From assembly GCA_021828545.1 (NCBI GenBank), contig JAJZEN010000074.1, forward strand, positions 1-40,234: a DNA stretch of 40,234 bases. The letters are read 5' to 3'. Of the stretch, positions 19,265 through 29,389 are shown one piece after another; within the stretch, counting starts at the first letter, position 1; every line of letters starts with the position of its first letter. Below the pieces are notes generated by a model. It was not told the DNA's origin and did no database searches. It worked only from the letters and a program-made list of their open reading frames with translations. Origin of the DNA: Actinomycetes bacterium (GTDB lineage: Bacteria > Actinomycetota > Acidimicrobiia > Acidimicrobiales > RAAP-2). A program made the translations under genes and the position numbers.

Positions 19265-20245
19265 ATGGTCAGACCAGTGCGGTGGGGATTCATCGGTACG
19301 GGACGGATCGCCCAGACCTTCGCGCGCGATCTGGCACTCATCGACGAGGGCGAAGTGGCCGCGGTCGGTTCACGTCGGCTCGATTCGGCCAATGTCTTTG
19401 GTGACGAGTTCAATGTCCCTCGTCGATACGGATCGTACGAGGCGTTGGTGCAGGACCCCGAGATTGATGCGGTGTACGTGAGCACCCCTCACCCGATGCA
19501 CTTCGACAACGCGGCGCTCGCCCTCGAGCACGATAAGCCCGTGTTGGTGGAGAAAGCCTTCACCATGAATGGCGCACAGGCTCGTGAATTGGTGGCGATG
19601 GCGCGTTCGAGGAACATCTTCATGATGGAGGCGATGTGGACCCGCTTTTTGCCCCACGTCGTCGCCCTACGGGACCTCGTCGAGCGCGGCGACCTGGGGG
19701 AGATCGTGATGGTCGAAGCGGATCACGGCAAATGGTTCGCCCACGATCGCGCCTCGCGCCTTTTCGCCCCCGAGCTGGGCGGCGGGGCGCTGCTGGACCT
19801 TGGGGTCTACCCCATCTCGTTCGCCTCGATGTTGCTCGGCACTCCCTCGCGCATGGTGACGATGGTCGACCCGGCATTTACGGGCGTGGACGGTCAAGCC
19901 TCGATGATCTTCGGTTACGACTCTGGCGCGCAGGCGTTGCTCACGTGCACCTCGGCCGCGCGCAGTGCGACGCGCGCGTGCATCACGGGCACCGCGGCGA
20001 GGATCGAGATCGACGCCGATTTCTACGCTCCGACGTCGTTTCGATTGATCACCCGCGAAGGGGATGTCACTCCTTTCTCCTTTGACGTGGCGCCGCGTGG
20101 ATTGCGCTTTCAGGCGATCGAAGTGGCTCGTTGTCTGCACGAGGGTCTCGTGGAGAGTCCTGTCATGCCCCTCGATGAAACTGTCGCCATTATGGAGACT
20201 CTCGAAAAAGTGATGGCGACCCTAGAGCCAGTCCCAGCCCGCTGA
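19265..20245 (+). CDS. Gfo/Idh/MocA-family NAD(P)-dependent sugar oxidoreductase
   Basis: The product has 326 residues and belongs to the dehydrogenase family that acts on sugars, inositols and related compounds; it most resembles the glucose-fructose/xylose and dihydrodiol dehydrogenase branch. The Rossmann start is VRWGFIGTGRIAQTFARDL, with the second-strand segment AAVGSRRLDSA. The family motif EKP is EKAF (VLVEKAFTMN), and the substrate domain has GGGALLDLGVYPISFASMLLG. A GAGGG site precedes the ATG. Together with the neighbouring sugar kinase, LacI regulator and transporters it likely takes part in carbohydrate catabolism; the substrate is unknown. Its 3' end overlaps the convergent kinase by 24 bp. 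Confidence 0.9.
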   Translation: MVRPVRWGFIGTGRIAQTFARDLALIDEGEVAAVGSRRLDSANVFGDEFNVPRRYGSYEALVQDPEIDAVYVSTPHPMHFDNAALALEHDKPVLVEKAFTMNGAQARELVAMARSRNIFMMEAMWTRFLPHVVALRDLVERGDLGEIVMVEADHGKWFAHDRASRLFAPELGGGALLDLGVYPISFASMLLGTPSRMVTMVDPAFTGVDGQASMIFGYDSGAQALLTCTSAARSATRACITGTAARIEIDADFYAPTSFRLITREGDVTPFSFDVAPRGLRFQAIEVARCLHEGLVESPVMPLDETVAIMETLEKVMATLEPVPAR

Positions 20246-21169
20246 GTGCGCGACGTCGCTACGGCGCGGTGGTGAAGCGCCGGAGCGCTGACAGTTAAGT
20301 CGCGATATCTCCACGGCGCCGGCGACCGCGCCCGCTACGGTTGTCCCCTCGTCGAGGTGCTGACGGGTGAGGTCGCGACCGGTCCACCACGCCAGGAAAC
20401 CTCCCACTAGGGCATCACCGGCCCCCACGGTGTCGACGACCTCGGTGGGAGCCACCTCGATGGTGAACTCGAAGTCCCGGTGTAGCACCGATACGGGTTC
20501 GGCGCCCCGGGTGACGATGACACAGCGCGCTCCGTCGTGCAGAATCCGCCGTGACCCCTCCGTTTCCGTGAGGTCGGGGAAGAGGTAGGCGAGGTCCTCG
20601 GTCGAGACCTTGACGACGTCGGCGCGCGCGCAGAGCCGGGTCACGCGTGCGCGATAGCCGTTGGGATCTTGTACGGCACTCGGGCGGCAGTTGGGATCGA
20701 GGACGACGAGTGTGTCGCGCGATGCCTTGGTCACCAAGGTCTCACCCAACGACGCCATGGGCTCGACGAGGAGCCCCAGTGTTCCCAGATACAGGGCGCC
20801 GAGTCGAGGGATCTTCGCCACCGCGGCGATCACCGCCGCGGGCTCGAGACAGAACGCCGCGGTGTCTCGAAGATGAAAGTCATAGCGTGGACCGTCGGGA
20901 CCGAGTTGCACCACCGCGAGGGTGGTGGGCTGGGCCAGCGGCTGGGGCAGCGTGATCCGTACCTGGCTATCGTCGAGGGCGCGCCGTACGAGTGATCCAA
21001 AGGCGTCGTTCGAGATCCCCGAGACGAAGTGGGCACTCGCCCCCAGTCGGCCAATGGTGCGTGCTACGTTCAAGGGTCCTCCGCCCACCACGGCCTGCAC
21101 GTTGCCCCCTGGTGAGACCAAAAGATCCACCAAATTTTCGCCCACAACGGCGATCGCGCGTGAGTTCAC
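20222..21169 (-). CDS. PfkB-family carbohydrate kinase (fructokinase-like)
   Basis: The product is a 315-residue ribokinase-fold enzyme that phosphorylates a sugar with ATP in the cytoplasm. Motifs in order are GENLVDLLVSPGG, VVGGGPLNVARTIGRLG (substrate-side glycine pair), VLDPNCRPS, VKVSTEDLAYLFPD, VIVTRGAEPV and DTVGAGDALVGGFLAWW. The last carries the anion hole and the catalytic aspartate at about residue 252. The overall pattern is closest to fructokinases, but substrate cannot be proven. It starts at GTG 21169 and is divergent from the lacI-type gene, with a LacI-like operator between them. Next to a fructose/ribose-type ABC transporter it would trap the imported sugar. Confidence 0.9.
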   Translation of the reverse strand: MNSRAIAVVGENLVDLLVSPGGNVQAVVGGGPLNVARTIGRLGASAHFVSGISNDAFGSLVRRALDDSQVRITLPQPLAQPTTLAVVQLGPDGPRYDFHLRDTAAFCLEPAAVIAAVAKIPRLGALYLGTLGLLVEPMASLGETLVTKASRDTLVVLDPNCRPSAVQDPNGYRARVTRLCARADVVKVSTEDLAYLFPDLTETEGSRRILHDGARCVIVTRGAEPVSVLHRDFEFTIEVAPTEVVDTVGAGDALVGGFLAWWTGRDLTRQHLDEGTTVAGAVAGAVEISRLNCQRSGASPPRRSDVAHSAGWDWL

Positions 21170-21248
21170 CGACGTCCGCGTCCTTTCAAAGGGTTCGCAC
21201 GACGACCACGTCGCCGCGACTGGTCGGGGCCCCGCTAGTGTCGCACGG

Positions 21249-21268
21249 TAGTTTAGACAACGTTATCT
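21249..21268. promoter_or_regulatory. LacI-type operator and -10 elements in the kinase/lacI divergent promoter
   Basis: AGACAACGTTATCT (21255-21268) is a near-perfect dyad centred on AACGTT. A -10-like TAGTTT (21249-21254) for the rightward gene abuts it. Read leftwards the same bases give TAAACT (21255-21250) for the kinase. An operator here could repress both genes. It matches the perfect copy upstream of the first transporter. Confidence 0.72.
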
Positions 21269-21322
21269 CACCACCATTGGGAGTGGCTCACCGGGCGGGG
21301 AGCTCGAGAAAGAAGATGCCGC

Positions 21323-22381
21323 ATGGTCCAAACAGTGCCGAACCGAGGATCGGTCTCGCGCGCGACTATGAAGGATGTCGCGGCGCTGGCCCGCGTCAGC
21401 CTGAAGACGGTGTCACGAGTGATCAACGATGAGCCCACGGTCAACGTCGAGCTGGTCGAGCGGGTGCGCCGCGCCGCGAGCCAGTTGCACTACCAGCCTC
21501 ACCTTGGCGCGAGCGCGTTGCGCCGGCGCGACGGACGCTCCTCGACGATCGCGGTGTTGCTCGAGGATCTATCCAACCCGTTCTCGGCGGTCATCTACCG
21601 AGTGCTCGAGGAGATGTCGATTGCCCGCGGTGTCTCGGTGCTGGGCGGGAGCTTCGACGAGGATCCCCAGCGTGAACGAGAGCTCACTCTTCGTATGTCG
21701 CGCTACCGCGTGGACGGCGTCATCATCGCTCCGGCGAGTCGAGATCATCAGTACTTGCGCCAAGAGCAACTCGCCGGCGTCCCCTTCGTCTTCATCGACC
21801 GCCCCCCCCATCTGCTCGACGCCGACGCGGTCTTGTCGGATTCTCGTGTCGGCACGCGTGATGGGGTGAAACACCTGATGAAACACGGCCATGATCGCAT
21901 CGCCTTTCTCGGAGACCTCACCACGATCTTCACCGCCCAGGAGAGATTCAATGGCTACAGCGACGCTTTGGCCATCGGTGGGCTCACCGTCGACCCGAGG
22001 CTGGTCGTTCGAGACCTACGCACAGTGGAGGCGGCTCAGGCAGCCGCCGGTGCGCTCCTCGATTCATCGAACGCGCCCACGGCATTCTTCGCCGCTCGCA
22101 ATCCCTTGACGGTGGGGACGGTGCGCGCCATTCGCGAGCGAGGATTGCAAAAGGACATCGCCCTCGTGGGATGCGACGACTTCTTGCTGGCCGATCTGCT
22201 CGAGCCCGCTATCACCGTCGTGGCCCAGGACCCGCTGGCCATTGCCCGTGAAGCGGCCACCCTGCTCTTCGCGCGCATAGATGGTGAGAATGGACCATCG
22301 CAGAAGAAGATAATTGAGATGACCTTCATCGCCCGCGGTTCGGGGGAAATTCGACCAGTACCGAGTCCCAGCCTGCGCTAA
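21323..22381 (+). CDS. LacI-family transcriptional regulator
   Basis: The product is a 352-residue repressor with an N-terminal helix-turn-helix (ATMKDVAALARVSLKTVSRVINDEPTVN) and hinge helix (PHLGASALRRR). A periplasmic-binding-type effector domain follows (STIAVLLEDLSNPFSAVIYRVLEE, VDGVIIAPASRDHQYL, FVFIDRPP, HDRIAFLGD, ALVGCDDFLLADLLEPAITVV). The effector is probably a sugar or sugar phosphate. I keep ATG 21323; a start at 21368 would cut into the first helix. It is preceded by its own LacI-type operator, consistent with autoregulation. The same operator lies before the ABC transporter immediately downstream, so these genes are its likely regulon. Confidence 0.93.
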   Translation: MVQTVPNRGSVSRATMKDVAALARVSLKTVSRVINDEPTVNVELVERVRRAASQLHYQPHLGASALRRRDGRSSTIAVLLEDLSNPFSAVIYRVLEEMSIARGVSVLGGSFDEDPQRERELTLRMSRYRVDGVIIAPASRDHQYLRQEQLAGVPFVFIDRPPHLLDADAVLSDSRVGTRDGVKHLMKHGHDRIAFLGDLTTIFTAQERFNGYSDALAIGGLTVDPRLVVRDLRTVEAAQAAAGALLDSSNAPTAFFAARNPLTVGTVRAIRERGLQKDIALVGCDDFLLADLLEPAITVVAQDPLAIAREAATLLFARIDGENGPSQKKIIEMTFIARGSGEIRPVPSPSLR

Positions 22382-22460
22382 TCAGGGATTACTCAGTGTG
22401 GTGACCCGTGAGCACAGCTCTCGCTGGCAATGGGCCCGTGAGGTGAAGAAAGTCACGCAA

Positions 22461-22495
22461 TTGACATTGACAGAAATGGGAGTCCTGGCTAGTGT
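22461..22495 (+). promoter_or_regulatory. Promoter of the first sugar ABC transporter
   Basis: TTGACA occurs twice in tandem (22461-22466 and 22467-22472). The second copy is spaced exactly 17 nt from TAGTGT (22490-22495). This is the best -35/-10 pair in the window. Transcription should begin near 22502, giving a leader of about 60 nt. Confidence 0.75.
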
Positions 22496-22497
22496 GA

Positions 22498-22509
22498 GAC
22501 AACGTTGTC
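22498..22509. promoter_or_regulatory. Perfect LacI-type operator over the transporter transcription start
   Basis: GACAACGTTGTC is a perfect 12-bp palindrome with the AACGTT core typical of LacI-family operators. It sits 2 nt after the -10 and covers the predicted start, so binding would block transcription. It lies 117 bp after the lacI-type gene. Confidence 0.78.
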
Positions 22510-22519
22510 CAGTACTCCG

Positions 22520-22532
22520 TGAGACGGTCTCA
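22520..22532. promoter_or_regulatory. Second dyad in the transporter leader
   Basis: TGAGACGGTCTCA is a dyad with 6-bp arms around one G, lying 10 bp downstream of the LacI-type operator. The one-base loop rules out an RNA hairpin. It could be a second protein-binding site; nothing identifies the protein. Confidence 0.4.
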
Positions 22533-22560
22533 TGGTTCGGGCAAGGGGGGAAGCAAAATA

Positions 22561-23577
22561 ATGAAGTCACGTTCAATGCGACTCGTCCAGGGTGCGGCAG
22601 TTGCCTCAACTTTGGCCGCGTCAGTTTTCACGTTCGTTGGGGGCACCGCTGGGGTGGCCAACGCGGCGGCGAAGAAATACACGGTGGACTATGTCGTGGG
22701 AGCGGCGTCGGACCCGTTCTTCATTTCCATGAGGGTCGGCGCCACCGCCGAGGCCAACAAACTGGGCATCAAGTTGGTGTGGCAGGGCAACCCCAGTGTT
22801 TACTCGTCGGCCACGCAAATTCCCATCGTTCAGAATCTGCTCGCCACGGCGCCGAACGCGCTCGTTCTGGCCCCCACCGACACCAAGGCGCTCCAGCCTC
22901 TGGTGGCGCAGTACGTGTCGAAGAAAATTCCGGTCTTTAACGTCGACTCGGGCGACGCGAACCAGAGCAACATCACGGCCTGGGTGACGGGCAACAATAT
23001 CCAGGGTGGCAAGGCCGCGGCCGACGCACTGGCTGCGGCCATTGGTTACGCCAAGCACTGCACGTCGTCGTCGAAGTGCGTGGTCGCCATCGGCGTGAGC
23101 TCCATCACCACGTCGACCGACGCGGCTCGTTTGCAGGGATTCGCTGCCGAGGTCAAGGCCAAGTACCCCAATATTAAGGCGCTCAACCCGATCGTCTCGA
23201 ACTCCCAGCCGGCCGTGGCGACGTCGGGCTTCAAGCAGGACTTGTCGGCCAACAAGGTCGCGGGAATTTTCGCGATCGATGGTACGGACCTCGAGGGCGC
23301 CTCTCAGGCGATTCTCACCGCGGGTTCGGCGGGCAAGAACATCAAGGTGGTGGGTTACGACGCGTACGCCACGACCATCAAGAGCATGCAGGCGGGCAAG
23401 ATCTCGGCGATCATTTCCCAGCAGCCCGCCCTCGAGGGTAAGGACATCATCGATGCGGTGTACGCAAAGTTGACGGGTAAGGGAAAGATCGCTCACCTGA
23501 CGACGCTCGCCAACGTCGTCTTGACACCGGCGAACTGCGCCATGCTGTGCGCTAAGTACGTGTACAAGGCGGCTTAG
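22561..23577 (+). CDS. Sugar ABC transporter substrate-binding protein (ribose/fructose type)
   Basis: This is an exported binding protein that captures a monosaccharide for the permease encoded downstream. It has 338 residues, with a Sec signal peptide: basic n-region MKSRSMRL, hydrophobic core to about 30, and likely cleavage after VANA. There is no lipobox cysteine, unusual for a Gram-positive binding protein. The mature part matches the Peripla_BP_4/RbsB fold: VVGAASDPFFISMRVGATAEANKLG, APNALVLAPTDTKALQPLVAQYVSKKIPVFNVDSG, GIFAIDGTDLEGASQAI, KVVGYDA and QQPALEG. Two cysteine pairs (CTSSSKC, CAMLC) could form disulfides. I start at ATG 22561, 8 nt after GGGGGAAG; the track start at 22519 lacks a signal-peptide shape. 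Confidence 0.92.
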   Translation: MKSRSMRLVQGAAVASTLAASVFTFVGGTAGVANAAAKKYTVDYVVGAASDPFFISMRVGATAEANKLGIKLVWQGNPSVYSSATQIPIVQNLLATAPNALVLAPTDTKALQPLVAQYVSKKIPVFNVDSGDANQSNITAWVTGNNIQGGKAAADALAAAIGYAKHCTSSSKCVVAIGVSSITTSTDAARLQGFAAEVKAKYPNIKALNPIVSNSQPAVATSGFKQDLSANKVAGIFAIDGTDLEGASQAILTAGSAGKNIKVVGYDAYATTIKSMQAGKISAIISQQPALEGKDIIDAVYAKLTGKGKIAHLTTLANVVLTPANCAMLCAKYVYKAA

Positions 23578-23590
23578 TCCCCGCACGATT

Positions 23591-23630
23591 CGGACCCCTG
23601 GGCGAACCCGAGTGTTCGCCCAGGGGTCCG
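23591..23630 (+). terminator. Strong intercistronic hairpin after the binding-protein gene
   Basis: A perfect 16-bp stem (23591-23606 pairing with 23615-23630) with an 8-nt loop lies 13 bp after the binding-protein stop. It is not followed by a T-run. Such hairpins commonly protect the upstream mRNA or partly terminate, so that binding protein is made in excess over permease and ATPase. Confidence 0.8.
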
Positions 23631-23693
23631 TCGGTGCTGTGCAGTACTTTCAATATGTGTTCATCGGTTCCGATGTCGTCCTAAGGAAGTCCC

Positions 23694-24722
23694 GTGTCAA
23701 TTGTCGAGACACCGCCCCCCCAGGGCACCGCAGAGAGGCCACCCTCGCTGCTTCGACGCTGCGCCGCTCTCCTCACGAGCCAGCAATCAATTCTGCTCGT
23801 GGTCTTGATCGCGGTGATGTGCTTCTTCGACTTCCACAACAGTCGATTCTTTAGTACGTCGGAGTTCTCTAATCTCATCGTGGACTTCTGCGAAGCTGTC
23901 CTGATCGCCGCCGCCGAGACCTACGTGATCATCTCGGGTGGTATCGATTTGTCAGTTGGTTCGACCGTCGCGGTCTCGGGAGTGGTGGGGGCCTACGTCA
24001 TCCAGTACCTGGAAGGACATCACTTCGGCGAGGTGCCCTCGTTGCTCGTCGGTACCCTGGTCTGCGCGGGAGTGGGGGCGCTGGTGGGCATCATTAATGC
24101 GCTGATGATCACGAGGGCCCGACTCGTCCCCTTCGTCGCCACGCTCGTCACGCTAAGTGCGGGGGAGGGCCTGGCGCTGGTGTTCTCCAAGGGGGGCACC
24201 ATTGGCTACGACCCCGTGGCGGCCGTCTGGAGTGCCACCGGATTTTGGATCTTCACGTGGCTCTCGGTCATCGTGCTGGTGCTGACGGCGATTCTGGGCA
24301 TTGTGCTGCACGTCTCTCGATACGGCCGTTACAACTTCGCCATCGGTTCCAACCCCTTCGCCGCTCGGGCCGCGGGCATCAACGTCAATCGCCACGTGGC
24401 CTCGGTTTATATCCTGTCGGGACTCTTGGCCGGCCTCACCGGGATGATCTTTTACTTCCAGACGAGCGGGGGCGCGCCCCAAAGCGGTATCGGCAACGAG
24501 CTCGAGGCGATTGCCGCGGTGGTCATCGGCGGAGCCAGCCTCGTGGGCGGCGCGGGTCGCTTCACCGGTACGATCATCGGCGTGGCGATCTTGACCGTCG
24601 TCCACGACGGTTTGACCTTCATCAACGTCGCCACGACGTGGAACGAGGTTGTCGTGGCGGCCTTCATCGCCCTGGCCGTCCTTCTTCAATCGCTCAGCGC
24701 CGGATCGAAGAAGTTGCTATGA
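23694..24722 (+). CDS. Sugar ABC transporter permease (RbsC/FrcC family)
   Basis: This integral membrane subunit has 342 residues and eight or more hydrophobic helices, starting with SILLVVLIAVMCFFDF. The family signatures are ETYVIISGGIDLSVGSTVAVSG, MITRARLVPFVATLVTLSAGEGLALVFSKGG, FAIGSNPFAARAAGINVNR and ELEAIAAVVIGGASLVGGAGRFTGTIIGVA. Residues 1-30 are a hydrophilic cytoplasmic tail. The start is GTG 23694 behind TAAGGAAG. The last bases overlap the ATPase start (ATGA), so the two are translationally coupled. The gene order binding protein-permease-ATPase is that of the fructose transporter frcBCA. Confidence 0.93.
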   Translation: MSIVETPPPQGTAERPPSLLRRCAALLTSQQSILLVVLIAVMCFFDFHNSRFFSTSEFSNLIVDFCEAVLIAAAETYVIISGGIDLSVGSTVAVSGVVGAYVIQYLEGHHFGEVPSLLVGTLVCAGVGALVGIINALMITRARLVPFVATLVTLSAGEGLALVFSKGGTIGYDPVAAVWSATGFWIFTWLSVIVLVLTAILGIVLHVSRYGRYNFAIGSNPFAARAAGINVNRHVASVYILSGLLAGLTGMIFYFQTSGGAPQSGIGNELEAIAAVVIGGASLVGGAGRFTGTIIGVAILTVVHDGLTFINVATTWNEVVVAAFIALAVLLQSLSAGSKKLL

Positions 24723-25477
24723 GCGTCGAACGCGAACCCATCCTCGAGTTGCGCCACATCAGCAAGTCCTACGGTTCGGTGCGGGCGCTGACCGACGTCA
24801 GCTTCCGCGCATACTCGGGAGAAGTCATTGGCTTGGTCGGTGACAACGGCGCGGGTAAATCCTCATTGATCAAGACCATCTCTGGTGTGCACAATCCTGA
24901 CTCCGGCGAACTCTTCGTCGACGGCGTGGCGCGTCACTGGAAATCACCCCATGATTCGATGCAGGCGGGAATCGAGACGCTCTACCAAGATTCTGGCCTG
25001 GCACCGGATCTGACCATCGGTTCGAACATCTTCTTGGGTCGAGAATTGCTCCGTCGGGGTGTACTGGGGCGACTTGGCTTCCTCGATCAAAAGACCATGG
25101 AACGCCGTGCCCTCGAAGAGCTCGAGAAGGTTGGCATCACGGTCCCCTTGTCCAAGCGCACCGTCTCGCAACTCTCCGGGGGTCAACGCCAGGCGGTGGC
25201 GATCGGGCGTGCCGCCATGTGGGCGAAGCACGTGATCATCCTGGACGAACCCACGAACCACCTGGGCGCGCGACAGTCACTGGAGGTGCTCAAGGTCATC
25301 ACCGCCGCGAAGGAGCAAGGACTCTGTGTGTTGTTCATCTCGCACACACTGCCGCACGTGCTCGAGGTGACCGATCGAATCATCGTGTTGCGACTCGGCG
25401 CGGTGGTGCGCGACGCGCCCACCACCGAGTACACCGTGGAATCGCTCCTGGGGACTATCACGGGATTGAGCGTCTAG
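24719..25477 (+). CDS. Sugar ABC transporter ATPase, single domain (FrcA-like)
   Basis: This 252-residue ATPase energises the upstream permease. It shows Walker A GDNGAGKSS, signature LSGGQRQAVAIGRAA, Walker B VIILDEPT and the switch histidine in LFISHTL. After Walker B it reads NHLGARQSLEV, where sugar ATPases more often have AALG. Unlike RbsA or XylG (about 500 residues with two ABC domains) it has one domain, as in FrcA, so it must act as a homodimer. The track start at 24245 is an artefact; the ATG at 24719 overlaps the permease stop by four bases. Confidence 0.92.
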   Translation: MSVEREPILELRHISKSYGSVRALTDVSFRAYSGEVIGLVGDNGAGKSSLIKTISGVHNPDSGELFVDGVARHWKSPHDSMQAGIETLYQDSGLAPDLTIGSNIFLGRELLRRGVLGRLGFLDQKTMERRALEELEKVGITVPLSKRTVSQLSGGQRQAVAIGRAAMWAKHVIILDEPTNHLGARQSLEVLKVITAAKEQGLCVLFISHTLPHVLEVTDRIIVLRLGAVVRDAPTTEYTVESLLGTITGLSV

Positions 25478-25483
25478 ACATCG

Positions 25484-25500
25484 AGGCGCAAGTAGCGCCT
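25484..25500 (+). terminator. Short hairpin after the first transporter operon
   Basis: AGGCGC and GCGCCT form a 6-bp stem with a 5-nt loop, 6 bp after the ATPase stop. No T-run follows. It could be a weak terminator or an mRNA 3'-end stabiliser. Confidence 0.4.
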
Positions 25501-25886
25501 GGACGGTCGCTCGCTGGACGTCGATCGCCGTGTCGTCATTTCACGTCGCGCTCGAACGACGCGCATCTCATTTCGTGCCCAGTGACGTCGAACGCGCGCG
25601 GTGGGAAAAGCGCGGTGCCACCGGGTACTTTGGCGTCGCGAACCCCCTATCGCTTCCACGCATTGACAGAATCTGTGGGTGCTCTCCTGCGGGGGGTCGC
25701 GGTGAATTCTTCGGCGTGAGCGTGAGGCCGTTGCGGAGTCCCGTCAACGACGTTAGGCGTCACCACCTGGGAAAAGCATCGCGACGCGACGCCACCGTTG
25801 GCCGTTCGCGCTCCCCGTTGTCAACACCGGAGAGGGGAGCGGGGGGCGCATTGGTCCCAAATTGAAACGATGCAAGTGACAATCAG

Positions 25887-25904
25887 GTGAAACAATGCGT
25901 TCAC
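25887..25904. promoter_or_regulatory. Operator-like inverted repeat before the second transporter
   Basis: GTGAAACAATGCGTTCAC has 5-bp matching ends (GTGAA/TTCAC) and overlaps the putative -35. Part of it, TGAAACAATGC, repeats a copy 25 bp upstream (TGAAACGATGC at 25863). It differs from the LacI-type operator of the first transporter, so a different regulator is expected. Confidence 0.45.
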
Positions 25905-25927
25905 ATTGGTTCGTTTGGTGTTATGTT
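25900..25927 (+). promoter_or_regulatory. Probable promoter of the second sugar transporter
   Basis: TTCACA (25900-25905) is separated by 16 nt from TATGTT (25922-25927). Transcription from here gives a leader of about 90 nt. Confidence 0.5.
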
Positions 25928-25981
25928 CTCCTTGCCGTAACGCGAGAGCGTGACGGTATTTGTTGCAGTGCAAAACCGAGA

Positions 25982-25997
25982 GACGTCTTCGGGCGTC
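25982..25997 (+). promoter_or_regulatory. UUCG-capped hairpin in the leader of the second binding-protein gene
   Basis: GACGTC and GGCGTC pair around the loop TTCG, closing with a C-G pair. This forms the exceptionally stable cUUCGg tetraloop. It lies just upstream of the GGGGAG ribosome site and may stabilise the mRNA or shape translation. Confidence 0.55.
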
Positions 25998-26023
25998 AAA
26001 AGAGAGTTGGGGAGAAAAAAAAC

Positions 26024-27247
26024 ATGAATTTTAATAAAGCGAAGGGTGCCGCCTCTTTGGTGGTTGCCGGAGCCTTCGTAGCGGCGATGTTGCCGGGCGT
26101 GAGCTCGGCCAGCGGAGCCATTACGGCGAGTGCTCTGAACACGAGCTACAGCACCATGCTGCTGCCCACGATTCAGTCACTGGCGGCGCACGCAAAGGGC
26201 GGCATCGGCGTTATTTTGCCCGACGAGACCTCGTCAACCCGTTACGTCGAGTTCGACGCACCGGCGCTGACCACTGCGTTCTCGGACGCTGGTCTCAAGA
26301 CCAGTCAGTTCAACATCCAGAACGCCCAGGGTTCGGACGCGATCGCCATTGCCGACGCGCAGGCGGACATCACGGCAAAGGACAAGGTGTTGATCATTGA
26401 CACCGAGGACGCCGCGACCGCGAATACGATTCAAAAGGACGCCAACCGGGCCGGCGTGAAGGTCATCGACTACGACCGCCTGCAGTCCAATGGCGCCGTC
26501 TACGTGAGCTTCAACAACGTCACCGTGGGTACTTTGATCGGTAAGGGCATGCTCAGCTGCTTGAGCGCGTGGAAGGTCAAGAACCCTCTGATGTACGTCA
26601 TGGATGGCGCGGCAACTGACCCCAATGCGGGACAGTTCGCGAAGGGCTACAACGCCGTTCTCAACAAGGCCGGCTACGCCGCCGCTGAAGGTGGCAAGGG
26701 TAACGCCAAGACCATCAACGAGAACGCCGGTACGTGGGACCCGCCCACCGCGTTGAAGGACTTCCAGGGTGCGTACGCTGCTAACAGCAAGATCAACGCC
26801 GTGGTGACTCCGAACGACGAGAACGCCGCTCCGATCATTTCGTACCTGCAGGGCCAGGGCCTCAAGCCCAAGACCATTCCCTTCACGGGCCAGGACGCAA
26901 CGCTCGCCGGTTTCCAGAACATCCTCGCGGGCTACCAGTGCGGTACCGTGTACAAGCCCAGTTGGCTCGAGGCGCAGGCGGCGGCGATCGCTGCTCTGTA
27001 CTTGGACGCTGGCAAGGCGATTCCGGGAAGTCTGTTGACGGGCAAGACGCAGTTGACCGGCACCAAGACCATGGTTCCGACGGTGGAGTTGAGCCCGACC
27101 TGGGTGACCACCGCCAACATTCAGTCCACGGTCATCAAGGACGGCGTTATCAACAAGTTCGCCTTGTGCACCGGTGTCCGTCCGACGGTCAAGGGAAGCC
27201 ACCTGCCGACGTACGCGCAGGACTGCAAGACCTACGGCATCAAGTAA
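26024..27247 (+). CDS. XylF/ChvE-like sugar ABC transporter substrate-binding protein
   Basis: This is an exported binding protein of the xylose/multiple-sugar type with 407 residues. The signal peptide is MNFNKAKG plus a hydrophobic core to about 26, with likely cleavage after SSA and no lipobox cysteine. XylF-type motifs are GVILPDETSSTRYVEFDAPAL, AGVKVIDYDRLQSNGAVYVSFNNVTVG, AVVTPNDENAAPII and PFTGQDATLAGFQNILAGYQCGTVYK. The canonical SFDN is SFNN here. The ATG at 26024 follows GGGGAG; the track start at 25895 would place an AT-rich leader in the protein. It is monocistronic-like at its 5' end but followed after 12 bp by its ATPase. Confidence 0.92.
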   Translation: MNFNKAKGAASLVVAGAFVAAMLPGVSSASGAITASALNTSYSTMLLPTIQSLAAHAKGGIGVILPDETSSTRYVEFDAPALTTAFSDAGLKTSQFNIQNAQGSDAIAIADAQADITAKDKVLIIDTEDAATANTIQKDANRAGVKVIDYDRLQSNGAVYVSFNNVTVGTLIGKGMLSCLSAWKVKNPLMYVMDGAATDPNAGQFAKGYNAVLNKAGYAAAEGGKGNAKTINENAGTWDPPTALKDFQGAYAANSKINAVVTPNDENAAPIISYLQGQGLKPKTIPFTGQDATLAGFQNILAGYQCGTVYKPSWLEAQAAAIAALYLDAGKAIPGSLLTGKTQLTGTKTMVPTVELSPTWVTTANIQSTVIKDGVINKFALCTGVRPTVKGSHLPTYAQDCKTYGIK

Positions 27248-27259
27248 GCATTAGTAGTG

Positions 27260-28096
27260 ATGGACGACACCCCAGAGACCTTTGAGTCAGTTATTGCAGG
27301 ACCCCGGGGCTCTGGGGTGGTACCGTCCGACGGTCCACCGCTGCTGAGCCTGCGCGGCATCACCAAATCTTTTGGTGCCGTGCAGGCTTTGCGGCACGTG
27401 GACCTCGATATTCCAGTCGGTCAGGTCACCGCCTTGGTGGGTGACAATGGGGCCGGTAAGTCAACCCTCATCAAGACCATTTCCGGAATCTGGGCCCCCA
27501 CCAGCGGGACCATTTCCTGGAAGGGTAAGGAAGTTCACGTCCATACGCCGCGTGACGCCTCGGACCTGGGCATCGCCACCGTTTATCAGGACTTGGCCCT
27601 GTGTGACAACCTCGATATTGTCCAGAATATGTACCTGGGTCGCGAGTCGACCAAAGGGGGCATTCTCGACGAGATCGAGATGGAGATTGCGACGCGTAAG
27701 ACCCTGGCTGATCTCGCGGTCACGACAGTCAAGTCGGTGCGTCAACTGGTCGGGTCGCTCTCGGGCGGGCAACGCCAGTCCGTCGCCGTCGCGCGCGCGG
27801 TCATGCGTGAATCAGAGTTAGTGATTTTGGACGAGCCCACGGCCGCACTGGGCGTCTCGCAGACCGCCCAGGTCCTCGAACTCATCAAGACCCTCAAATC
27901 CCATGGTTTGGGCGTCATCGTTATTTCTCACAACCTCAGCGATGTTTTTGAAGTGGCCGATCGCCTCGCCGTAATGTACTTAGGTACATTGGTGAACAAC
28001 GGTCCCATCGAAAACTACGACACGGCAAGCGCCGTTGAACTCATCACTACCGGGTCGTCCAGCCGCGTGCCGGGACCCGGGGCGATGAGCAATTAA
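27260..28096 (+). CDS. Sugar ABC transporter ATPase, single domain (XylG/FrcA-like)
   Basis: This 278-residue ATPase partners the adjacent permease. It shows Walker A GDNGAGKST, Q-loop VYQDLALCDNLDI, signature LSGGQRQSVAVARAV, Walker B LVILDEPTAALG and switch histidine VISHNLSDV. Before the ABC domain is a 30-residue acidic tail. It again has a single domain, unlike XylG of enterobacteria. The start is ATG 27260, or GTG 27257 one codon earlier; neither has a good ribosome site, so coupling to the preceding gene 12 bp upstream is likely. Confidence 0.92.
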   Translation: MDDTPETFESVIAGPRGSGVVPSDGPPLLSLRGITKSFGAVQALRHVDLDIPVGQVTALVGDNGAGKSTLIKTISGIWAPTSGTISWKGKEVHVHTPRDASDLGIATVYQDLALCDNLDIVQNMYLGRESTKGGILDEIEMEIATRKTLADLAVTTVKSVRQLVGSLSGGQRQSVAVARAVMRESELVILDEPTAALGVSQTAQVLELIKTLKSHGLGVIVISHNLSDVFEVADRLAVMYLGTLVNNGPIENYDTASAVELITTGSSSRVPGPGAMSN

Positions 28097-28114
28097 CTGA
28101 AAGGTCGACGTCAC

Positions 28115-29389
28115 GTGTCAAGCGATTTAACCTCGGAGGCCCTTCCCTCCGGGTCCGTCACCACCACGTCGGGACTCGCCGACGGTGAGGCTCCCAAACT
28201 AGATCTGGCCCTACAGTTCCGTAAGCTCTGGAAGGGTGACAGTGGTCTGGTCCCGATTCTCGTCGGCCTGGTCATCCTGATCATCTATTTCGAGTCTCGC
28301 AGTTCGAACTTCTTGACCGCGCAGAACCTCACCAATCTCATGGTGCAGGCAACCGTCTACATGCTGTTGGGCATGGCGGAGATCTGGTTGCTCCTCCTCG
28401 GCGAGATCGATTTGTCCGTAGGAGTGACCTGCGCGCTGTCGGGCATGGTCGCGACGATCCTTACCGACCCCCAGTATCACTGGTCGTGGTTCATCGCGTT
28501 ACCGCTGGGCGTCGTGACGTCGATGGCGGTGAGCGGGCTCTACGCGTTCTTCGTCATTAAAGTACGGCTCCCGTCGTTCATCGTGACCCTGGCGGGATTT
28601 CTCGCGGTTCAGGGCGTCTTGATTTACGTCGTGGACAAACAAAAGACCGGTGGGTCGGTGTCCGTGCAAGAAACGGTGCTCTACGACCTCGTGGGCGGTA
28701 ATTTCACCGTGCTGGCGACGTGGCTGTTCATCATCATCTGCATCGCCGTCCTCGCCTTCATGATGATCCGCAGTAATGAGCGGCGCATTCGTAACAACCT
28801 CGTCGCGCAACCACGTTTGTTATTGCTCTTCAAGTTGATTGGACTCGTTCTCGTGGGACTGGGTCTGGTCTGGGTGTTCAACACCAACCGGTCGAACTTC
28901 CTCGTGCTCGAGGGGATGCCCTTCGCCATTCCCATTGATCTGGCTATCTTGGCTGGAGGGACATTCATCCTCACCAAGACGCGCGCCGGCCGCTACATCT
29001 ACGCCATTGGTGGCAATGCTGAAGCCGCCCGTCGCTCGGGAATCGCGGTCAACCGTTACCGTCTGTTCGCCTTTCTGGCGACCGGTTTCACGGTGGGCGT
29101 CGCCGGACTCCTCTACGCGTCGCGACTCGGCGGTATCACCGACGGCGTGGACAATACGCTCACATTGTTGTCAGTGGGTTCGGCGGTCATTGGAGGGACG
29201 AGCCTCTTCGGCGGTCGGGGCAAGATGATCCACGCCGTGATCGGCGGTATCATCATTGCCACGATCTACAACGGCATGGCCCTGCTACAGATGGCGGCGT
29301 CCACTGAGTACATCGTGACGGCCGCGGTATTGTTGGCCGCGGTGACCATCGACTCGTTGGCGCGTCGCGGCAGCACCATCGTCAAGTAG
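28115..29389 (+). CDS. XylH-like sugar ABC transporter permease
   Basis: This 424-residue membrane protein is larger than RbsC-type permeases, as is usual for XylH. A 45-residue hydrophilic N-terminus precedes about ten or more helices. Signatures are MAEIWLLLLGEIDLSVGVTCALSG, VRLPSFIVTLAGFLAVQGVLIYV, GRYIYAIGGNAEAARRSGIAVNRYR and TLLSVGSAVIGGTSLFGGRGKMIHAVIGG. A charged central loop (IRSNERRIRNNLVAQPR) separates the two halves. It starts at GTG 28115 with AAAGG about 10 nt upstream, 18 bp after the ATPase. It ends 8 bp from the convergent menE stop, with no terminator visible between them. Confidence 0.92.
   Translation: MSSDLTSEALPSGSVTTTSGLADGEAPKLDLALQFRKLWKGDSGLVPILVGLVILIIYFESRSSNFLTAQNLTNLMVQATVYMLLGMAEIWLLLLGEIDLSVGVTCALSGMVATILTDPQYHWSWFIALPLGVVTSMAVSGLYAFFVIKVRLPSFIVTLAGFLAVQGVLIYVVDKQKTGGSVSVQETVLYDLVGGNFTVLATWLFIIICIAVLAFMMIRSNERRIRNNLVAQPRLLLLFKLIGLVLVGLGLVWVFNTNRSNFLVLEGMPFAIPIDLAILAGGTFILTKTRAGRYIYAIGGNAEAARRSGIAVNRYRLFAFLATGFTVGVAGLLYASRLGGITDGVDNTLTLLSVGSAVIGGTSLFGGRGKMIHAVIGGIIIATIYNGMALLQMAASTEYIVTAAVLLAAVTIDSLARRGSTIVK

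Follow-up and report, generated by a model that had tools for sequence, protein, structure and literature searches.

A LacI-family regulator encoded in the 40 234-nucleotide stretch of DNA analysed here (the window) is very probably a local, autoregulated repressor that controls the uptake, and probably the phosphorylation, of a fructose-like monosaccharide; we put the probability of this reading at roughly 0.88. A dozen relatives have the predicted operator in the same positions, and the predicted circuit is therefore very probably real. We infer that in the absence of the sugar a regulator dimer would occupy an operator of roughly 17–18 bp with a central CG, approximately GTGAGAYAACGTTGTCY, at two positions: O1, between the −35 and −10 elements of the regulator gene's own promoter and in the gap shared with a divergent PfkB-family kinase gene, and O2, just downstream of the −10 element of a CUT2-type transporter operon. 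The bound dimer would block RNA polymerase and would be released once the sugar, or a derivative of it, occupies the Peripla_BP domain.

The regulator and its relatives

The regulator (21323–22381, + strand) is a protein of 352 amino acids. It has an N-terminal LacI helix–turn–helix (residues 15–59; Pfam LacI) followed by a periplasmic-binding-protein-like sugar-sensing domain (residues 74–340; Pfam Peripla_BP_1/3), which is the arrangement of the LacI/GalR family. The Pfam scores are 55 bits for PF00356 (cut-off 27) and 105 bits for PF13377 (cut-off 26.5). The protein falls below every NCBIfam equivalog cut-off, including those of the RbsR, FruR, CytR and UriR models, the best being RbsR at 164.4 versus 382 bits.

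The window belongs to a draft genome of 1.96 Mb in 167 contigs. In the same-genus genomes sampled we found 19 orthologues of the regulator with 47–88% identity, across which the helix–turn–helix core DVA..A.VS.KT.SRV.N is invariant. The search covered 61 genomes of the genus, 11 of which, besides the window genome, hold close orthologues (64–88% identity); a 12th relative with a close orthologue, MAG L091, was taken from the genome collection. The relatives that carry names are mostly Acidimicrobiaceae or actinobacterial MAGs, several of them with peatland isolate names (palsa, bog, fen).

Operators and promoters

The first-pass annotation had reported a perfect palindrome, GACAACGTTGTC, at 22498–22509, 2 nt past TAGTGT (22490–22495), and a near copy, AGACAACGTTATCT, at 21255–21268; both are found exactly there. 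The full predicted operator extends beyond the version given in that annotation. O2 (22494–22510, + strand) reads GTGAGACAACGTTGTCC; it covers the predicted transcription start, and its core GACAACGTTGTC is invariant across the ten aligned SBP1 upstream regions and recurs on contig C84 of G058. O1 (21252–21274) has the core GACAACGTTATC at 21256–21267 and reads GTGAGATAACGTTGTCT on the minus strand, and it stands in the same place in 12 relatives. Compared in the same reading direction, the two sites are identical at 15 of 17 bases. The palindrome is even and CG-centred, as are most of the motifs in a survey of the LacI family, in which 72% of the regulators surveyed were autoregulated (PMC4052901). 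A literature search on the exact operator sequence returned nothing relevant.

The transporter promoter, TTGACA-N17-TAGTGT (22467–22495, + strand), has a perfect TTGACA (22467–22472) 17 nt ahead of TAGTGT. The pattern TTGACA-N17-TANNGT recurs in all ten aligned loci, and the order of promoter, 2 nt and operator is near-constant in the relatives. The lacI promoter of the relatives has the form TTGNNN-[AGACAACGTTATCTCAC]-TANNAT, in which the −10 is mostly TACCAT and the spacer is 17 or 18 nt (TTGACA-N18-TACCAT in G029). As TTGNNN and TACCAT flank the operator in these genomes, we place the lacI operator within the promoter spacer. The window's own lacI promoter (inferred at 21249–21277, + strand) has degenerate, weak hexamers, with TAGTTT (21249–21254) in the −35 slot, CACCAT (21272–21277) in the −10 slot and O1 in the 17-nt spacer between them. 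The near copy had been described as abutting the lacI −10, but alignment with 12 relatives puts TAGTTT in the −35 slot, which rules it out as a −10. Nor is the geometry relative to the −10 nearly the same at both sites, as had been proposed: O1 lies between the −35 and −10 elements, whereas O2 lies just past the −10.

For the kinase gene we could define no convincing promoter in the kinase–lacI gap, and no consistent −35 was found there. The overlap of O1 with a kinase −10, which the first-pass annotation had assumed, is possible. O1 is asymmetric through a C-to-T change, GATAAC replacing GACAAC (GATATC in one relative), and on the kinase strand the resulting GATAACG would fit a TANNNT −10 element inside the operator, albeit one with no supporting −35.

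Conservation of the sites

The lacI-proximal site is present in all 12 relatives with a close orthologue, as GACAACGTTATC or, in one relative, as GACAACGATATC, which carries one change beyond the common asymmetry. In each of the 12 it is asymmetric, one side reading ATC. A perfect GACAACGTTGTC precedes the gene for the first transporter's binding protein (SBP1) in 10/10 relatives that retain SBP1; in G058 the locus is split across two contigs, and its SBP1 site with the operator core is found on contig C84. The predicted operator is thus conserved upstream of the regulator gene and of orthologous targets, and both sites keep their position in the close orthologues while their surroundings diverge. 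The exact 12-mer occurs in 12 of 12 genomes with a close orthologue and in 12 of 49 without one (Fisher p = 1.6e-6, ignoring kinship among the genomes), the counts in orthologue-bearing genomes being mostly the neighbouring sites themselves.

Related motifs accompany the more distant orthologues. At 59–61% identity (L056–L058) GACAACGATGTC stands before SBP1, where it overlaps the −35. At 47–48% identity the gene order is reversed, so that lacI and SBP1 are divergent, and TACAACGTTGTC lies in the gap that they share. The operator has been relocated within the promoter: it lies over the −35 in distant orthologues and past the −10 here.

Gene content and probable substrate

The kinase gene (20222–21169, − strand; Pfam PfkB) is divergent from lacI and encodes a fructokinase-like sugar kinase of the PfkB family. 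Downstream of the regulator on the + strand are SBP1 (22561–23577; Pfam Peripla_BP_4), a CUT2-type sugar-binding protein resembling those for ribose and other monosaccharides, the CUT2 permease Perm1 (23694–24722; Pfam BPD_transp_2), which is like ribose/arabinose permeases, and the ATPase ATP1 (24719–25477; Pfam ABC_tran), which resembles one half of AraG or RbsA. This clustering of a Peripla_BP_4 binding protein, a BPD_transp_2 permease and an RbsA/AraG-like ATPase identifies the transporter as CUT2, although its ATPase is a single-domain half, unlike the fused two-domain RbsA type. A second, xylF/GguB-like CUT2 transporter follows on the same strand (26024–29389), with SBP2 at 26024–27247, ATP2 at 27257–28096 and Perm2 at 28115–29389.

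Kinase homology suggests that the sugar of the regulon is fructose-like, and this is the sole basis for the assignment. The PDB relatives of the kinase include fructokinases. Its best NCBIfam model is also a fructokinase (PRK09434, PfkB type), yet its score lies below the cut-off (116.7 versus 450 bits). In distant orthologous loci a ROK kinase stands in place of the PfkB kinase, closest to a putative fructokinase (PDB entries 1XC3 and 3OHR). Two unrelated fructokinase-like families therefore adjoin the same regulator, which points to fructose or a sugar like it. The solved structures nearest to SBP1 are binders of ribose and other monosaccharides, and these neighbours would also allow sugars besides fructose.

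Alternative interpretations

Perfect 12-bp palindromes are unremarkable by themselves in the window, which is rich in them (26 observed, 19.4 expected), and with up to two mismatches, the scan that the first-pass annotation had proposed, the 12-mer occurs at 194 places in the genome; being so common at this stringency, it makes the two-mismatch scan too loose. Stricter searches give a different picture. The exact 12-mer is expected about 0.23 times per whole genome, and the expected number of copies with at most one mismatch in the 153-bp kinase–lacI gap is 6e-4. Across the genome, the 14-mer AGACAACGTTGTCT is found with no more than one mismatch at three places, namely O1, O2 and a site on contig C126, and the 11 other one-mismatch 12-mer places examined in the window genome (ten, plus one on C86) are all inside reading frames. 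The many random copies away from promoters that would have spoken against a regulon are thus not seen at this stringency. Since the sites also recur at both promoters in a dozen species whose flanking sequences have diverged, we regard the probability that these are chance palindromes as negligible. Recognition of the sites by a same-family regulator encoded elsewhere, rather than by the window's LacI protein, is highly improbable. Genomes of this genus can hold several LacI-family paralogues, but in the window genome the regulator query has a single further LacI-family match (C48, 27% identity); moreover, the site tracks the orthologue of the window's regulator and moves with its gene where the gene order is reversed.

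The role of the regulator at individual targets is a separate question. A single repressor had been proposed for the kinase, the regulator itself and the transporter. The LacI domains, the conserved sites and their co-occurrence with the regulator strongly support control of the regulator gene and of the adjacent transporter. Control of the kinase is plausible because O1 occupies the only upstream region of the kinase gene, but it is less certain because no kinase promoter is definable and distant orthologues adjoin a different kinase. Both of these latter points would agree with a regulator that controls itself and the transporter and not the kinase, the operator in the shared gap serving the lacI promoter only, as would the location of the operator in the relatives exactly in the lacI promoter spacer. 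Against this, the gap is only 153 bp long with the operator as its only conserved block, and the C-to-T asymmetry of O1 would suit a kinase −10; we consider it rather unlikely that the kinase escapes control. It is less likely still, and in our view improbable, that the protein is an activator or a dual regulator at some targets. The distal positions of two sites described below would accommodate such a role, but O1 and O2 overlap the core promoter or the transcription start, which is a repressing position. The most consistent interpretation is still that of a local repressor of lacI and the transporter, and plausibly of the kinase.

A probable wider regulon

The regulon appears to exceed the earlier prediction, extending to an SBP_bac_5 transporter in the window genome and to the second CUT2 transporter and an aldose-1-epimerase in relatives. 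The third site of the window genome (G000), at C126:5368–5381, is 169 nt ahead of the gene for an SBP_bac_5 binding protein and about 100 nt upstream of that gene's apparent core promoter, TTGAGT-N17-TACAGT. It is found at 169–172 nt in G000, G046, G031 and G009 and is absent from 15 other genomes examined. In one clade (G017, G029 and G051) a perfect operator stands 158 nt before SBP2 of the second CUT2 transporter. As the third site and the SBP2 site are both distal, simple occlusion is insufficient to explain them, and they may act through looping, activation or a further promoter.

We note that all that is left of the first CUT2 transporter in G029 and G051 (L051 and L053) is an ATPase remnant, and that the operator stands before the second. 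The window's second transporter has no operator of the O1/O2 type upstream. A different CG-centred palindrome, TTGAAACGATGCAA, is located upstream of it at 25862–25875; it is conserved in relatives, is perfect as TTGAATCGATTCAA in G046 and probably serves a different LacI-family regulator as its operator.

The operator palindrome also occurs within the coding sequence of an aldose-1-epimerase paralogue, at codons 78–81 (around nucleotide 232), in G024, G046, G009 and G031 (L145–L148). These codons are identical in all four copies and form the longest run of identical codons (four; the next longest is two), against a background in which the codon is retained at only 36% of conserved residues. 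GTT is fixed in 4/4 copies, although it makes up 6% of valine codons. Protein conservation alone is thus an unlikely source of the palindrome, which we regard as a candidate intragenic operator. A fifth copy (G025) is without it, and the operator-bearing paralogue has no close counterpart in the window genome, where the single match is 50% identical. In Escherichia coli lac, an auxiliary operator lies inside lacZ. The operator inside the coding sequence in four relatives resembles that arrangement, but differs from it in that no partner operator was found upstream of the epimerase gene. Literature searches for LacI operators within genes and for LacI–fructokinase regulons of actinobacteria found no papers. 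Taken together, the sites would suit a distributed regulon rewired within one genus: one clade, two of whose three members no longer have the first transporter, would have gained an operator at the second, and the intragenic epimerase operator would act as a roadblock; we hold this tentatively, at slightly less than even odds.

Comparison with known systems

We place the system among the local autoregulated LacI-family regulons, a well-known type; its target set is lineage-specific, and no published description of its motif came to light. It shares with RbsR-type local regulons (PMC4052901) autoregulation, an adjacent transporter and kinase, an even CG-centred palindrome and an operator in the core promoter. 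It differs from them in its half-site, GACAAC with an extended GTGA, in a regulator that scores far below the NCBIfam equivalog cut-offs and in its hosts, which are peat and soil Acidimicrobiaceae-type MAGs. With Frc-type fructose ABC uptake coupled to a fructokinase it has in common a CUT2 transporter linked to a kinase (PfkB here, ROK in the distant loci); unlike in those systems, SBP1 is closest to binders of ribose and assorted monosaccharides, and its ligand is putative. The locus offers a concrete, testable sugar regulon for uncultivated peat and soil Acidimicrobiaceae-type bacteria without direct genetics. It is also a compact case of regulon evolution, in which a further transporter has acquired an operator, the operator has shifted within a promoter, one kinase has been replaced by another and an operator may lie inside a gene.

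Leader hairpins

An Rfam search of positions 20000–27000 gave no match. The SBP1 leader (22494–22560) contains a conserved hairpin, TGAGACGGTCTCA, between the operator and the ribosome-binding site; in G045 both arms are altered, giving CACTGGG-CCCAGTG. In addition, TTGTCC of the operator can pair with GGGCAA immediately upstream of the SBP1 Shine–Dalgarno sequence. The SBP2 leader (25990–26023) has a small hairpin, GACGTCTTCGGGCGTC, ahead of the Shine–Dalgarno sequence, the arms of which covary in relatives (for example GGGGCCGCAAGGCCCC), and a similar hairpin, CCACTTCGGTGG, is present at the SBP_bac_5 gene on C126.
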